Part shown: positions 28,798 to 47,092 of the stretch, piece by piece
Layout of the letters: every line of letters begins with the position of its first letter
How positions within the stretch are numbered: the first letter of the stretch is position 1
Position numbers and translations under genes: made by a program
Notes under the pieces: model-generated
Databases searched by the model: none
Seen by the model: the letters and a program-made list of their open reading frames with translations, nothing else
Told to the model about the DNA's origin: nothing
Virus record (IMG/VR): IMGVR_UViG_3300031825_000018
Location: 1-49,734 of that record
Length of the DNA stretch: 49,734 nt
Reading direction: 5' to 3' (one strand)
Source of the DNA: a virus

Positions 28798-29103
28798 TTA
28801 AGCGCCAGCCAGGAGAGCCGCGGCCAGGGCCGCGGCGGGGTTGTCGTCCGTGGGGGCCTGCTGGAGTGCTAGGCCGATCAGCTCATCGCTCCACGCGAGG
28901 GTGGGCGGATCGAAGTCGGTACCGGGATCCTCTTCCGTGGGAAGTCCCTGCGCCTGCAGGAAGGCGTTGAGCGCCCGCCCGAGCCAGCCGGCCCGGGCGT
29001 TCAGGCTCCAACGGTGGCACGCCGCCTCGTGCGTTACGAAGGGGTGCTGTCTTCCGCCGCGGGTGAGGGCGCCGAGCCAGGCTCCTCGCTCGCCCCCGAC
29101 GAG
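28798..29103 (-). CDS. Tail assembly chaperone GT, frameshift extension
   Basis: This segment is the -1 frame reached from the G-like gene at the A AAA AAC site. It adds 101 residues, making a 249-aa fusion ending PAAALAAALLAGA. It lacks a suitable own start and ends just before the tape measure gene. In lambda the GT fusion binds the tape measure protein during tail assembly. Confidence 0.83.
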   Translation of the reverse strand, partial: LVGGERGAWLGALTRGGRQHPFVTHEAACHRWSLNARAGWLGRALNAFLQAQGLPTEEDPGTDFDPPTLAWSDELIGLALQQAPTDDNPAAALAAALLAGA

Positions 29104-29546
29104 TTTTTTGTTTCTTCTCCCACCAGGTTCACCAGCTCGCCGGCCGCGTTCCCCAGCTCGATGAAGGCGGGCTCGAGCTTCTGGGAGAACTCGATCCACT
29201 CCTTCTTGGAGTAGCGCTCCGCTTCCGGCAGCCGGCCCCCGTCCGGGCCGCACTGCAAGGCGAACAGGGCGTTCACCGTCTGCCAGAGGCCCTCCGACAT
29301 CGGCACCACTTTCCCGTGGAGCTGGAAGACGTTCGGCCGTTTGAAGCTACCGTCCGGCAGCGTCTTCACGGTGACCCACTCGTCGATGTCCGCGCGGGCC
29401 GCTTCCCGGATCGCCAGCAGCGCCGCGAAGTCCGGCTTCCGCACGCAGAGGGTCACCTCCGCGCTCGGGTCCAGCGGATGGGCGAAGGTCACCTTCCGGA
29501 CGACGGGCGCGCGCACCGGCAGCGCCCCGAGATCAAGCTTTGCCAT
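29034..29546 (-). CDS. Tail assembly chaperone G-like protein
   Basis: The 170-aa protein starts MAKLDLGALPVRAPVVRKVT and ends in a disordered Ser/Glu/Pro tail. It sits between the tail tube and tape measure genes, the position of lambda G. Codons 146-148 read ACA AAA AAC, containing the in-frame slippery heptamer; -1 slippage gives GT. The ATG at 29546 is the only sensible start. Confidence 0.85.
   Translation of the reverse strand: MAKLDLGALPVRAPVVRKVTFAHPLDPSAEVTLCVRKPDFAALLAIREAARADIDEWVTVKTLPDGSFKRPNVFQLHGKVVPMSEGLWQTVNALFALQCGPDGGRLPEAERYSKKEWIEFSQKLEPAFIELGNAAGELVNLVGEETKNSSGASEEPGSAPSPAAEDSTPS
29103..29109 (-). other. Programmed -1 frameshift site A AAA AAC (G/GT)
   Basis: On the minus strand the heptamer AAAAAAC is phased X XXY YYZ in the G frame. 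Shifting -1 continues as CTC GTC GGG GGC in the long downstream frame. It is the same site type used in many siphoviruses. Confidence 0.9.
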
Positions 29547-38670: not shown

Positions 38671-38760
38671 GGGGCTTCAGTGAGGCAGGATGCAGAGAGA
38701 TGGGCGCAGAACAGGCGGCAGTGTATCCGCCTGTGAGCCTAGCTAGCGCGGGAGAGTGTG

Positions 38761-39690
38761 ATGGCGCCGGACCCCACTGTTCAGAAGACTTGCTTCGTGA
38801 TCTCGCCCATCGGGCCGGACGACTCGGAAATTCGCAGGCGTGCGGACCGCGTGTTCAAGCACATCATCACTCCGCCCTGTGAGGCGCACGGCTATGCACC
38901 AGTCCGAGCGGACCACATCACCCGGGCCGGTATGATTACAACCCAGGTAGTAGAGCAGATTCTGCAAAGCGACTTAGTGATCGCCGACCTCACGGGTCAG
39001 AACGCCAACGTCTTCTACGAACTGGCCATCCGGCACGCAATCCACAAACCCTACATTCAGCTCATTGAAGCTGGCGACACACTACCTTTTGACATTGCCG
39101 GGTTACGCACGATCCACGTAAATAGCACTGATCTGGACAGTGTTGCTGAGGCGCGTAGCGCTATTGCCAAGCAGATGGAAGACTTCGCTCAGAATGAAGC
39201 GCCCGTAGAGAGCCCCATATCGACGGCGTTGAACCTGCTCCGGCTCCAGCGAAGTGAAGACCCTGAACAAAGATCACTCGCGACTGTGATTGAAACTCTT
39301 GGTGAGATGCGTGCCGAATTTGGAGAGATCGCTGGTAGTGTTAGACACGTCCGAGAACTGACAAGGATTGTTCAGGAAGTCGTGGCAACTACGGATGATC
39401 TCAAACAACGATTGGATCCACGCCAGTCCGAACAAGAGATCAAGAGTCTCCGTCGTATTCGCCAGGATCAGATTTTACTCTCCATAAGCAATGCAGAGCG
39501 TGAGTTAAATGCACTGGAGCTTGAAGATGGAAGGGACGAGCTGGAAGTCGAGGAGCTTAAGAGTGCGCTGCAAGCGAGAATTGAAAACCTAGGTTGGCAG
39601 CTGACGTTTTTGGCTGCGAGCGATACGGTGAAACCAAAATGGAAAAAGAAACCAATCGACACTGACGGACCAAAGCCGCCATCAACGTAG
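38761..39690 (+). CDS. Moron: nucleoside deoxyribosyltransferase / TIR-like domain protein with coiled coil
   Basis: The 309-aa protein has an N-terminal Rossmann-like domain: CFVISPIGPDDSEIRRRADR, ILQSDLVIADLTGQNANVFY, ELAIRHAIHKPYIQLIE, LPFDIAGLRTIHVN. E87 in NVFYELA is at the position of the catalytic glutamate of nucleoside 2-deoxyribosyltransferases and related TIR-like NADases. Residues 160-290 form a charged coiled coil. The gene lies on the opposite strand to the late operon and is less GC-rich than its neighbours, so it is probably expressed in the lysogen. A defence role (nucleotide or NAD cleavage) is inference. The ATG at 38761 follows GGGAG. Confidence 0.75.
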   Translation: MAPDPTVQKTCFVISPIGPDDSEIRRRADRVFKHIITPPCEAHGYAPVRADHITRAGMITTQVVEQILQSDLVIADLTGQNANVFYELAIRHAIHKPYIQLIEAGDTLPFDIAGLRTIHVNSTDLDSVAEARSAIAKQMEDFAQNEAPVESPISTALNLLRLQRSEDPEQRSLATVIETLGEMRAEFGEIAGSVRHVRELTRIVQEVVATTDDLKQRLDPRQSEQEIKSLRRIRQDQILLSISNAERELNALELEDGRDELEVEELKSALQARIENLGWQLTFLAASDTVKPKWKKKPIDTDGPKPPST

Positions 39691-41352: not shown

Positions 41353-41983
41353 GCGCTTTCTCCGGGCTCATCTCGGCCAGGGCCGCGCGCAGCTCCTCGA
41401 TCCAGGCCTCCACCATGCGAGCGTTGAGGAGCTTTTCCTTGAGGTCCTGAATGGTCGTGAGGGTGGCCCGGCACTCCTGCATCGTGCTCAACACCAGAGT
41501 GCGGGGGTCGGCGTACTTGCTCTCCGCCCCGAGTACTCGGTGCTCCCCGAAGTCTTCGATTTCGTCCAGGAGCGCGCCCAGAGACTTGCGTTGCGGCTTG
41601 CGGGTGGTGGGCTCGCCGTCTCCGTTGAGCGGGAGGTAGATCACCTGGATCTCGTTGGCCCGGGGGCCGACATCATACCGCTTCGGGTTCGTGGGGTCCT
41701 GTAGCCACCGGTGGCAGGCGTCCATGAGCAGCCGCACCCGCTGGAGGCATTCGTCGAGAATCTCCAGCTCCGTGTTCGTGCTGTGCACAAACCGGCGGCT
41801 CTCCTCCGGAGCAGCCACCGCGGCCACGGTGCTTTTCTCGAGCGCCGCGATCCGAGAGTAGACGCCCTGCTTGGCGCAGCTGTACTTCTCCGCGATCTCC
41901 GCACCGTTCAATCCGTCCGCCAGGTCCTGGCGGAGTTGGGCGTCGGTGTATTTGCGGTGCCGGCCGCGGGGTTCCTTTGCCAT
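41255..41983 (-). CDS. Terminase small subunit
   Basis: The 242-aa protein has an N-terminal HTH (YTDAQLRQDLADGLNGAEIA, then CAKQGVYSRIAAL), a long helical middle and a C-terminal helix ending in AREVAENVQRRLSLAP. It should bind the packaging site and recruit the large subunit. It lies directly upstream of the large subunit gene. No cos site could be recognised by eye in the region. Confidence 0.8.
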   Translation of the reverse strand: MAKEPRGRHRKYTDAQLRQDLADGLNGAEIAEKYSCAKQGVYSRIAALEKSTVAAVAAPEESRRFVHSTNTELEILDECLQRVRLLMDACHRWLQDPTNPKRYDVGPRANEIQVIYLPLNGDGEPTTRKPQRKSLGALLDEIEDFGEHRVLGAESKYADPRTLVLSTMQECRATLTTIQDLKEKLLNARMVEAWIEELRAALAEMSPEKAREVAENVQRRLSLAPAFSGTAALPAGRGGGPA

Positions 41984-42010
41984 CGGTAAAGGCCAGTAAA
42001 GCGAGTCAAG

Positions 42011-42041
42011 TTGATTGGTGGACTCGGCCGCAACCTAAATT
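42011..42041 (+). promoter_or_regulatory. Possible promoter of the second moron
   Basis: TTGATT (42011-42016) and TAAATT (42036-42041) are separated by 19 bases (18 if CTAAAT is used). This is weak but lies in the small gap between convergently arranged units, just upstream of the moron start. Confidence 0.35.
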
Positions 42042-42063
42042 AGCGTGCAACCGTTCACCGTTG

Positions 42064-42591
42064 ATGGAGGCGACGAACTTGGACCCAATCTTAATACTGA
42101 ACCTGATCCTGGCCACTGGACTTGTGGGAAGCTGGGTGTCCCACTGGTTAGCGCAGCGGCAAAAGCAGCTCGATCACCTGGCCAAACGGAAGCTCCTCTT
42201 CTACCAGTTACGGATCGAAGTTGTAGATTGGCTCGCGCGACACGAAAGGGGGGTGACCGCCCTTATCGATACAATCCCTTCGCTTCAGAGAGTGCTCGAT
42301 AGCGAGGTCCTGAATTACGAAAGGGAACGCGAACTCACCATCTGCCTGATTAGGCTGCAAAACCAACTTCTTCGGCACGAAAAGTTGATTCGCGTGTTGC
42401 CGCTGAAGACTAGCGAATCATCCATTTCGGAAGACGAAAGCCGTGTTGCGGGTAAGATGCTCGACAACTGCGCCGGCGTAATTGCGGAGTGTTGCGCCCT
42501 TGCGTCACGTCTCTTACCAACCGACTTGGCCGGCTGGGAGCACGAGGATTCGCAAGGTATTATTCCGCCATTACCACGTCAACCCGGCTGA
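42064..42591 (+). CDS. Moron: membrane-anchored helical protein, hypothetical
   Basis: The 175-aa product has one membrane segment near its start (LILNLILATGLVGSWVSHWL) and then about 140 residues of charged helix. It is orientated against the late operon and has a more AT-rich composition. The ATG at 42064 lacks a clear ribosome site. The coding end overlaps the convergent late gene by 32 bases. Single-pass proteins of this kind can be superinfection-exclusion proteins, but nothing here proves that. Confidence 0.6.
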   Translation: MEATNLDPILILNLILATGLVGSWVSHWLAQRQKQLDHLAKRKLLFYQLRIEVVDWLARHERGVTALIDTIPSLQRVLDSEVLNYERERELTICLIRLQNQLLRHEKLIRVLPLKTSESSISEDESRVAGKMLDNCAGVIAECCALASRLLPTDLAGWEHEDSQGIIPPLPRQPG

Positions 42592-43146: not shown

Positions 43147-43358
43147 CAGCGGCGGCTGCGCCGACCACCACCGCGGCTCTTGTAGAGGTTCACGCGTTGA
43201 CGCTCACCCAGATGGCCCATACCACGGCCACTCTTCCGGTACTCCATGGCTGCGGTGGCATTCGCCACGCTCACGGATGCGGAGATGACGGCCGCCGCGC
43301 TGCGGAAGCTGTGCCACGGCTGGATGATGGCGGGTGCCGGTGGGACGTAGTAATTCAT
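43146..43358 (-). CDS. Small basic late protein, hypothetical
   Basis: The 70-aa product starts MNYYVPPAPAIIQPWHSF, has an Ala/Ser-rich middle and ends in a basic tail (YKSRGGGRRSRR). It overlaps the lysozyme gene by 4 bases, so it is part of the lysis cluster. Confidence 0.5.
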   Translation of the reverse strand: MNYYVPPAPAIIQPWHSFRSAAAVISASVSVANATAAMEYRKSGRGMGHLGERQRVNLYKSRGGGRRSRR

Positions 43359-43846
43359 CCGAGTAGATCCTCAAACACGAGTGCACGCAGGAGAACGTCG
43401 CGGCCGTAGTCCCGGCCGGTGGTGTAGCGGTCACTGTCGCCGGTGGAAACGCCCTGGGCGGCGTTGGTCATCCCGGCGTTGTAGGCGGAGGCGGCGACCT
43501 TCCGAACCTGGCGGTCGTCGAACGCAGGCCAGCGCTTCCGAACGGCCGCGCAGTTGTAGGCGAGCAGCTCGGCCGCGTGCTCGATCAGTGGCGCGGGATT
43601 GGTGCGCCAATCGGGATGCTCGGCGAGGAACTCCCGGTGCGACCGGTCGTCGATCTGCATCACTCCATGACCGTGGCCACCGTCGCCCAGGATGTTCTGG
43701 ATCCGGGTCTCGCGGGAGGCTACCGCCACCACGTAGGCAGGCGGTAACCCGGCCTGCTTCGCCGCGGCCACCAGGAGCGGGATCAGGCCCGTCCGCTGGC
43801 CGGCGCGGAACTGCGAGGCGAGCTGCTTGGGGGTCCAGTCATTCAT
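43355..43846 (-). CDS. Endolysin, lysozyme / lytic transglycosylase type
   Basis: The 163-aa protein resembles goose-type lysozymes and SLT transglycosylases: LPPAYVVAVASRETRIQNIL with a likely catalytic glutamate, then GDGGHGHGVMQIDDRSH, and a later SAYNAGMTNAAQG. It degrades peptidoglycan at lysis. No signal peptide or SAR domain is seen, so export should need a holin, which the neighbouring membrane proteins could supply. Confidence 0.83.
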   Translation of the reverse strand: MNDWTPKQLASQFRAGQRTGLIPLLVAAAKQAGLPPAYVVAVASRETRIQNILGDGGHGHGVMQIDDRSHREFLAEHPDWRTNPAPLIEHAAELLAYNCAAVRKRWPAFDDRQVRKVAASAYNAGMTNAAQGVSTGDSDRYTTGRDYGRDVLLRALVFEDLLG

Positions 43847-44124
43847 AGCGAGAGTTGAAATCCCTGTGGGTCGGCGAGGTCGGGGCTGAGTTCCACGCCA
43901 AAGTGCCGCTCAATGGTCCGGAACGGCTGCGAGTCCTCGACCAGTCGGAGCTGCACGGCGCCGCGTTGCGCGAGGCGCACCAGGCCCGGGAGGGCGTCCG
44001 CGTAGAGCACGCGGACGCCGGTCAGGTCCAGCACGTCACCGCGCTCCGCGTCGAAGAAGGCGGGGCTATCCACCGCGTCCGGGAAGCGGATCAGGGCCGG
44101 CTGCTGGGTGCGGAGGGGAGGCAT
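43843..44124 (-). CDS. Small protein of the lysis cluster, hypothetical
   Basis: The 93-aa product (MPPLRTQQPALIRFPDAVDS) is beta-rich with VLDLTGVRVLYADALPGLVR. I chose the ATG at 44124, which overlaps the stop of the frameshift extension upstream as TAATG. It ends with ATGA coupling to the endolysin gene. No family recognised. Confidence 0.58.
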   Translation of the reverse strand: MPPLRTQQPALIRFPDAVDSPAFFDAERGDVLDLTGVRVLYADALPGLVRLAQRGAVQLRLVEDSQPFRTIERHFGVELSPDLADPQGFQLSL

Positions 44125-44285
44125 TAGAAGGTCCGGTGCCACCAACCCATCACGGTGCCGTCCGGTTGGGTGGTGATGGAGAGGCCGTCCCGCGTGGGCC
44201 GGCCGAGGAGCCCGCCGGCTTTGCGCAGGAGCCAGTCGGAGAGAGCTTGGGCCGCGAGCTGTTCTAGCTGGCGGCGAACTGCGCG
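44124..44285 (-). CDS. Putative -1 frameshift extension of the holin-like gene
   Basis: A 53-codon stretch in the -1 frame reads AVRRQLEQLAAQALSDWLLR and ends GTVMGWWHRTF. The frame opens only just upstream of the slip site and has no ATG, GTG or TTG start there. Its stop shares one base with the next start codon. Reached by slippage at T TTT TTC it would make a 155-aa fusion with the holin-like protein. Confidence 0.55.
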   Translation of the reverse strand, partial: RAVRRQLEQLAAQALSDWLLRKAGGLLGRPTRDGLSITTQPDGTVMGWWHRTF

Positions 44286-44590
44286 AAAAAACCCGTGCGG
44301 TTCGCGAACAGGACGAGCGCGTCAATCAGCATGCCGGCGCCGTTGTAGACCACCGGGTTGAGCCAGTCCGGCAACAGCGGATCGAGCGCGTCCTTTAGCC
44401 GGGCCTGCGCGGCCGTCTTCTTCTCGCCGCCCTTACCGGGGCCTTCGGTTTCGAGCTCGACGGCGATCACCACCAGCAACACGGCGGCGACAGCTTGCTT
44501 CAAGGCTTTGAGCATGGTTCGCACCTTTCGGTAGGAGACCCAGAGCGCGCCGAGAGTACCCAGCCACGCCACGGGGTCAGGGAGTTTCAC
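44264..44590 (-). CDS. Holin-like membrane protein
   Basis: The 108-aa product has a hydrophobic N-terminal stretch, a clear membrane segment (AVAAVLLVVIAVEL) and a second hydrophobic C-terminal part (NGAGMLIDALVLFANRTGFF). It is in the lysis cluster beside the endolysin, so a holin role is likely. Codons 100-102 read GGT TTT TTC and contain an in-frame slippery heptamer close to the stop. Confidence 0.62.
   Translation of the reverse strand: MKLPDPVAWLGTLGALWVSYRKVRTMLKALKQAVAAVLLVVIAVELETEGPGKGGEKKTAAQARLKDALDPLLPDWLNPVVYNGAGMLIDALVLFANRTGFFAQFAAS
44285..44291 (-). other. Candidate -1 frameshift site T TTT TTC
   Basis: On the minus strand TTTTTTC is phased X XXY YYZ in the holin-like frame, 18 bases before its stop. 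Slippage joins the 53-codon downstream frame. Confidence 0.55.
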
Positions 44591-44781
44591 CGGCGCACGC
44601 CCTGGGCTTCCAGTACGCGGAGCCGCTCATCGTACCGCTCCAGGTGCACTTCGTGCCGCTGCACCGTCTCCCCCACGAACTCCAACCGGGTCTCCAGGCG
44701 CGTGAAACCGCGCACCACGGCCACCAGGATCGAGAGCAGAGTGAGGAGTATCCCCAGGCTGAGGGTCAGGTCGAGTTTCAC
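44587..44781 (-). CDS. Small membrane protein with coiled-coil tail (lysis cluster)
   Basis: Starting at the GTG at 44781 gives a 64-aa protein with one N-terminal membrane segment (LTLSLGILLTLLSILVAVV) and a charged helix (RLETRLEFVGETVQRHEVHL). Longer frames run through a terminator hairpin, so I prefer the later start, although the ribosome site is weak. It overlaps the holin-like gene by ATGA and could be a holin partner, antiholin or spanin. Confidence 0.55.
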   Translation of the reverse strand: MKLDLTLSLGILLTLLSILVAVVRGFTRLETRLEFVGETVQRHEVHLERYDERLRVLEAQGVRR

Positions 44782-44803
44782 AAGAGCACCCAGAAACGCA
44801 AAG

Positions 44804-44833
44804 AACCCGCTCGGCACAGTGCCGGCGGGCTCA
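44804..44833 (-). terminator. Intrinsic terminator within the late operon
   Basis: GAGCCCGC-CGGCA / TGCCG-A-GCGGGTTC with a three-base loop is followed by TTTGCGTTT on the minus strand. It separates the first late genes from the lysis cluster. Confidence 0.65.
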
Positions 44834-44902
44834 TACATTTCCATCCTACCACGGGGGTTCTGCTCAATGTCCGCTTTCGCAGTCCGGAGCGACCCCAAAC
44901 GG

Positions 44903-45954: not shown

Positions 45955-46599
45955 TCAGATGTCGTCGACCAGCTTCTTGCGCTCATCCGCCACCGCGGCG
46001 TAGTAGATCCGCGTGGTGTTGAGGTCTTCGTGGCCGGCTTGCGTGGCCACCTCGAAGATATTCTTGCCGTTCCGCGTGGCGCTGCGCACCAACTCCGTGA
46101 TGTGCGAGTGCCGGAACGCGTGCGGGTGGATGCCCTTCGCGCCAAGCAGCTCCTCGATCCGGCCCACCAGGTGGCGCACGGCCCGGGTGCACATCCGCCC
46201 GCCTTTGCGCGACACAAAGAGCGGCTGCACCCGCACGCCGTTTTCCTCGAGCTCGCATTCCGGCCGGATGTCGAGCCAGATCTCCACCAGCTCCACGCCG
46301 GCGCCCGCGAGGGCCGGCTTCCGCTCCTTGTCGCCCTTCCCGTGAAGCACGTCGATCGTACCGCTGTCGAGGTCCACGTCCGGCACGTTCAGCGCCACCA
46401 CTTCGAACGAGCGCAGGCCCGCGAACAGGCACACGCCGATGATGGCCTGATCCCGCTCCGCCTGGCCCTCGTAACGCCGATCGCGCGCCGCGGCCGCGAG
46501 GATCTCATTCCAGAGAGCGCGCGGAATGGCACGCGGCAGGCGCCGTCGCAGGGCGCCGCGGCGCTTACCGCCCTGCGACGCGCCCGGCCTAGCTCCCAT
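45955..46599 (-). CDS. Second tyrosine recombinase (XerD-like catalytic domain)
   Basis: The 214-aa protein is nearly all catalytic domain. Numbered from an upstream GTG four residues earlier, R67 (FAGLRSFEVVAL), a lysine in GKGDKERK, H164-R167-H168 (HAFRHS), H194 (GHEDLNTT) and Y204 (IYYA) form a complete active site. The N-terminal core-binding domain is short or missing. It lies in the late operon away from the att site, so it is probably not the integrase; concatemer resolution or inversion of a DNA segment is possible. GTGAGG precedes the ATG at 46599. Confidence 0.82.
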   Translation of the reverse strand: MGARPGASQGGKRRGALRRRLPRAIPRALWNEILAAAARDRRYEGQAERDQAIIGVCLFAGLRSFEVVALNVPDVDLDSGTIDVLHGKGDKERKPALAGAGVELVEIWLDIRPECELEENGVRVQPLFVSRKGGRMCTRAVRHLVGRIEELLGAKGIHPHAFRHSHITELVRSATRNGKNIFEVATQAGHEDLNTTRIYYAAVADERKKLVDDI

Positions 46600-47092
46600 C
46601 CGTGGCCTCACCAGGAGAGCACAGGCGGTTTCGGCGCTGCAGCTCGCGCCACCGTCGCACCAGCGAGCCGACCCAGCCCCAATGCTCGCGGCCGGACTCG
46701 AGGTAAAGCTCCAGCGGCGGTACCGGGACGCCGCGCCGCATCAGGTCGTTCCAGCAGTCCAGGTCCCACAGGAAGAGGGCGAACTCGTCGGCCGAGAGAT
46801 CTCCAAGGGCGCGGAAGTGGTTCGTGTCGCCGCGGCGGGCTTCGAAGTTGTGCAGGAGCCACAGCCGCACATGCTGCGACGTGAGCTCCCATTGACCGCC
46901 GGCGGGAAACCCGGCGCCGCGATAGCCGCAATTGGCCGCGAGCGCTTCGGCCTGGTCATCCTCGGTGGGGAGGCGCTGGCCCGGCTTGAGCGGTCGCCCG
47001 TCCGGCGTGCGCGGGATGCGCCGCTGCCGGCGCTGCTCCGCGTGGGTAAGGGGCGCGTCAGGCCGCGAGAGGCCCGGAGCTGCGGTCGCCAT
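46589..47092 (-). CDS. Late protein, hypothetical
   Basis: The 167-aa product has a basic N-terminus, a middle NHFRALGDLSADEFALFLWD and a Trp-rich C-terminus. It overlaps the upstream gene by 35 bases and the recombinase by 11. No family recognised. Confidence 0.55.
   Translation of the reverse strand: MATAAPGLSRPDAPLTHAEQRRQRRIPRTPDGRPLKPGQRLPTEDDQAEALAANCGYRGAGFPAGGQWELTSQHVRLWLLHNFEARRGDTNHFRALGDLSADEFALFLWDLDCWNDLMRRGVPVPPLELYLESGREHWGWVGSLVRRWRELQRRNRLCSPGEATDGS

Follow-up and report, generated by a model that had tools for sequence, protein, structure and literature searches.

A lysis-cassette gene with a probable coding continuation in the -1 frame behind a slippery heptamer in a temperate tailed phage

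In the lysis cassette of a temperate tailed phage, the open reading frame of one small gene stops early, and translation of the gene very probably continues in the -1 frame behind it, judging by the codon usage and position of that frame. The chances that this continuation is read by programmed -1 frameshifting are put at about even, for a gene seen in this arrangement in a single genome. A base missing from the record at the same place is a serious possibility, though one that we would sooner doubt than accept. Both gradings are judgements and not computed posteriors.

The window, meaning the whole stretch of 49,734 nucleotides that was analysed, is a phage contig from an IMG/VR virus record, with an integrase at 45955-46611. 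As seen in Table 1, four small genes of the lysis cassette, coding for a transmembrane protein, the product of the studied gene, a 93-aa protein and an endolysin, stand head to tail on the minus strand. Overlapping by 1-4 nt, they are probably translationally coupled. The junctions in order are GTGA (the stop of the membrane-protein gene 44844-44587 with the GTG start of the studied gene), TAATG, and ATGA (the 93-aa gene with the endolysin gene 43846-43355). The TAATG link is made by the -1 frame of the studied gene; its 0-frame falls 140 nt short of the next start and would leave the sole gap in the cassette.

Table 1. Position of the features of the lysis cassette and of the tail-chaperone-like pair in the window
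Feature	Position	Strand	Remarks
Upstream small membrane protein	44587..44844	-	Charged tail, probably coiled-coil, behind a single strong TM segment
0-frame ORF, GTG start, 108 aa	44264..44590	-	Weakly Holin_LLH-like
Slippery sequence GGGTTTTTTC	44285..44294	-	Overlapping in-phase G_GGT_TTT and T_TTT_TTC
-1 frame, FF + 53 codons	44124..44291	-	Coding-like; without own start; TAA overlaps next ATG (TAATG)
Possible stimulatory hairpin (GCCGC C AGCT / AGCT C GCGGC)	44251..44275	-	About 9 nt after the heptamer
93-aa gene, function not assigned	43843..44124	-	93-aa counterpart at the same position in L005
Endolysin-like SLT transglycosylase	43355..43846	-	52% identical to the L005 enzyme
Presumed tail-chaperone pair	28798-29546	-	170-aa ORF, in-phase A_AAA_AAC at 29109, -1 extension 28798-29109 without start

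The 108-codon frame runs from GTG at 44590 to TAG at 44266-44264. Its codons GGT TTT TTC (44293-44285) hold T_TTT_TTC at 44291-44285, six sense codons (GCG CAG TTC GCC GCC AGC) before the TAG, as a preliminary description of this DNA had stated, and besides it an overlapping second heptamer, G_GGT_TTT at 44294-44288, both in the phase of the 0-frame. Such in-phase X_XXY_YYZ heptamers are rare in the window: 7 occur in the 10,660 codons of its larger ORFs, two of them at the studied site, and at that rate the roughly 19-codon overlap of the 0-frame and the -1 frame, inside which the heptamer lies, should contain about 0.01. GGT (6%) and TTT (18%) are minor codons in this phage, and given Gly-Phe-Phe the choice of GGT TTT TTC has a chance of 0.9% by phage codon usage. 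Among bacterial slippery motifs the site is a strong one. U_UUU_UUC falls in the shift-prone class H_HH.U_UU.Y measured in Escherichia coli, and is listed as under-represented and shift-prone (PMC4066793); SPP1 carries the identical heptamer, UUUUUUC, at the putative -1 site of its tail chaperone 17.5/17.5* (PMC6316719).

The -1 frame is bounded by TGA 44324-44322, which lies 33 nt ahead of the heptamer, and by TAA 44126-44124, which overlaps ATG 44124-44122 of the 93-aa gene. No ATG or GTG occurs in it until 44153, nine codons short of its end. The 53 codons, the upstream opening, the missing start and the TAATG overlap were all given correctly in the preliminary description. At the G+C of the window an open -1 frame of this length is unremarkable; the remaining frame is likewise open over this stretch. 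The G+C of the stretch by codon position is 0.70/0.54/0.79, and its mean log-odds in the codon model is 0.21, higher than that of any of the 399 open wrong-frame windows drawn from known genes, in agreement with the plausible protein composition claimed for it earlier. The same score stands at only the 1.2 percentile of true-frame windows. When the contig was scanned in an unsupervised manner, only two start-less coding segments were found in the late operon, each lying in the -1 frame and preceded by an in-phase heptamer: the studied stretch, and the extension of the tail-chaperone-like pair behind A_AAA_AAC at 29109.

The phage appears to use another -1 shift, in that tail-chaperone-like pair. 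No family matches were found for either part of the pair. It adjoins a 656-aa ORF, which may be the tape measure.

Searches with the terminase, portal, endolysin and small terminase led to only one syntenic lysis cassette, on contig IMGVR_UViG_3300036786_000120 (hereafter L005). This sole relative with the same cassette has the gene order of the window (TM protein, homologue, 93-aa gene, endolysin), and its small terminase is 45% identical. Between the tail, head and polymerase genes of the window and L005 no tblastn match was seen, and the lysis cassette and small terminase common to both phages look like a mosaic module. Two opposite-strand ORFs were also observed in the window. One of 204 aa at 41977-42591 (+) is inserted in the late operon, and is absent at that place in L005. 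The other, of 310 aa at 38758-39690 (+), lies between portal and terminase, has a lower coding fit to the phage, and resembles by eye nucleotide-hydrolysing or TIR-like proteins (ISPIG...LVIADLTG..NVFYELA); it is possibly a cargo gene.

The L005 homologue of the studied protein has 95 aa and is about 30% identical over 74 residues. A single reading frame lacking any slippery site codes for it, and the stop of this frame shares TGATG with the start of the following gene, an arrangement whose window counterpart exists only in the -1 frame. The C-terminal 15 residues of the homologue (KNAEAALEKLVVSAA) align with the beginning of the -1 product (RAVRRQLEQLAAQAL) and not with the 0-frame end (AQFAAS). 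The alignment extends gap-free through the -1 residues, raising the local score from 80 to 95 and the phmmer score from 24 to 29 bits. Shuffling gives the tail match a p of about 0.016, and a score as high is reached by 0.3% of other 15-mers; for so short a helical stretch this is modest evidence. Residues 16-53 of the extension had no homologue in IMG/VR and the phage collection. Relatives were not found for the short protein in IMG/VR, the phage collection and plasmids, nor for the extension in IMG/VR and the phage collection, and no useful relative came from 396 genomes of the phylum of the Acidobacteria MAG or from 149 of another phylum. Weak matches of the extension to gp51 of an Arthrobacter phage, to a Stenotrophomonas phage and to G004 were discarded as chance, falling in unrelated or arginine-rich frames.

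The comparison of homologues suggested at the outset speaks both ways, from a single relative: the -1 residues have their likeness in the L005 tail, and the heptamer is absent there. Site and frame arrangement are not conserved in this one distant homologue, which lowers the frameshift claim without excluding it. Given the likeness of the L005 tail to the first 15 residues of the -1 product, together with the coupling geometry, the extended protein looks like the normal form of the family and the 108-residue form like a truncated one. The likeness also disfavours an added antiholin-like tail, and it raises the standing of a missing base. A holin with an antiholin or regulatory tail, thought possible in the preliminary description, is not supported.

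Programmed frameshifting is favoured by several observations together. The -1 stretch bears the codon signature of the phage's own genes, the start-less coding segments of the late operon both follow an in-phase heptamer in the -1 frame, such heptamers are scarce and GGT TTT runs counter to the codon preference of the phage, the motif is of a shift-prone class and recurs in SPP1, and the stop-start overlap of L005 is matched only by the -1 frame, through which the alignment to its protein also runs. Moreover, none of the twelve further runs of 6-7 identical bases in the window interrupts a scanned gene, and several of these lie in the polymerase ORF of 1556 aa, which is intact. It is weakened by the sole homologue, which is in one frame without the site, and by the T6 run being the likeliest place for an indel. 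The downstream RNA is ordinary, no Shine-Dalgarno-like stimulator is seen, residues 16-53 of the extension lack a homologue, and its codon score is low for a true gene, all of which count against it as well. Downstream stability is no better than in shuffles (z = -0.07), short windows reaching only the lowest 6-13%. The possible hairpin places the 0-frame TAG at the top of its stem and loop, and its stability is unexceptional. The search for a Shine-Dalgarno-like signal upstream of the heptamer was made by eye; no Rfam element was found.

The layout of the sequence, the coding character of the -1 stretch, the coupling geometry and the likeness of the -1 start to the L005 C-terminus are observed. 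That slippage takes place, how efficient it would be and whether it bears on the timing of lysis are inferred, along the following course. The region 44590-44124 would encode one protein of about 155 residues, its last third in the -1 frame, with translation beginning at the GTG. On GGG TTT TTT C, the tRNA-Phe in the P-site and that in the A-site would slip back one base and re-pair on TTT TTT. A fraction of the ribosomes would then yield the extended product, and the remainder would stop at TAG and yield the 108-residue form. Shifted ribosomes would terminate at TAATG and could pass directly to the next gene, so that the stop-start coupling of the cassette would be kept.

The main rival to frameshifting is a one-base indel, in which a single ORF of about 155 codons has lost one T through assembly or sequencing error or through true mutation. 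The L005 homologue, in one frame and with a tail like the -1 residues, fits such a loss, as does the position of the break at one of only 14 homopolymers of at least 6 bases in 49.7 kb. The sequence is a single one from an IMG/VR virus record, and the stimulatory structure is not convincing. However, the restored T7 run would need GGT TTT TTT, which is rarer still by codon usage (0.2%), and the position of the break agrees exactly with the slippery phase, its direction being -1. Nor is any other late gene broken except the tail-chaperone-like pair, long genes with runs of 6-7 bases being intact. Of the idea of a short and an extended form of one lysis protein, put forward in the preliminary description, the coding continuation is supported as very probable, and the ribosomal shift is the somewhat likelier of two readings.

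It is very improbable that the 108-aa ORF is complete and the next 140 nt untranslated or decayed, with the open -1 frame an accident. The codon score near the bottom of the range of true genes and the want of homologues past the first 15 residues agree with this explanation, whereas the superiority to every open wrong-frame window, the coupling of the -1 stop to the next start, a gap that would be unique in an overlapping cassette and the similarity to the L005 tail all oppose it. Still less credible is a separate small gene, entered by re-initiation or from a non-standard start codon after the 108-aa ORF, which the probable coupling of the overlapping cassette genes would allow, but ahead of 44153 the -1 frame holds no ATG, GTG or TTG, with none near the TAG either, its one CTG has no ribosome-binding site before it, and the similarity to the L005 tail begins at the junction itself. 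Readthrough of the TAG was rejected, since the 0-frame after it scores as non-coding.

The gene was first described as holin-like, which did not hold up well. The match of the 108-aa protein to Holin_LLH (PF09682) covers residues 10-70 and is sub-threshold, at 16 bits against a cut-off of 24.9 bits, and that to PHROG 608 has E = 0.065. Profile searches found no holin match in the L005 homologue. The KD19 hydropathy peak is 2.12 at residues 26-44 of the window protein, compared to 1.52 in the L005 homologue, which has no clear transmembrane segment by this measure. A structure model is all-helical and of low confidence (pLDDT 65), too weak for fold comparison. An SLT endolysin lies two genes downstream, in the same order in L005. 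The protein resembles Holin_LLH in being small, encoded upstream of the endolysin and weakly similar in profile. These features suggest a holin only weakly, and a lysis-cassette protein of unassigned role is the safe description. The membrane segment of the 44844-44587 gene product is stronger than that of the studied protein, and this upstream protein is a candidate for an alternative holin or a spanin.

Among tailed phages, it is chiefly in tail chaperones that programmed -1 shifts are known. Lambda G/GT and SPP1 17.5/17.5* share with the studied gene an in-phase X_XXY_YYZ near the end of a short ORF and a -1 ORF without its own start, and short and extended products are proposed here too. 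Unlike them, the studied gene lies in a lysis cassette beside the endolysin and not before the tape measure, and the shift is not conserved in the one homologue found here. Two forms of one lysis protein would also have a functional analogue in dual-start holins, of which lambda S is one. SPP1 24.1/24.1* and 26/26* are of the same dual-start type (PMC6316719). Their forms differ N-terminally by start, whereas those of the studied gene would differ C-terminally by frame. In cluster BI Streptomyces phages, frameshifts have been predicted in small genes near holins and endolysins, with no experimental test; these predictions come from the coding potential of gene finders, and the genes are near holin or endolysin genes and not stated to be such (PMC9671017). 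For lysis-cassette genes of tailed phages, holins included, the open-licence literature yielded no demonstrated frameshift, the nearest cases being these predictions; this is not proof that none exists.

Only shifted ribosomes would reach TAATG; that a frameshift for this reason sets the translation of the next gene as well as the ratio of short to extended protein, and thereby helps to tune the dosage and timing of lysis proteins, is conceivable but unlikely. Should the break prove to be an indel, it would be a caution that missing bases at slippery runs mimic recoding. If recoding is true, the gene would be a new place for a -1 shift of the tail-chaperone kind, and would set a C-terminal, ratio-setting control of lysis proteins beside the dual-start holins.
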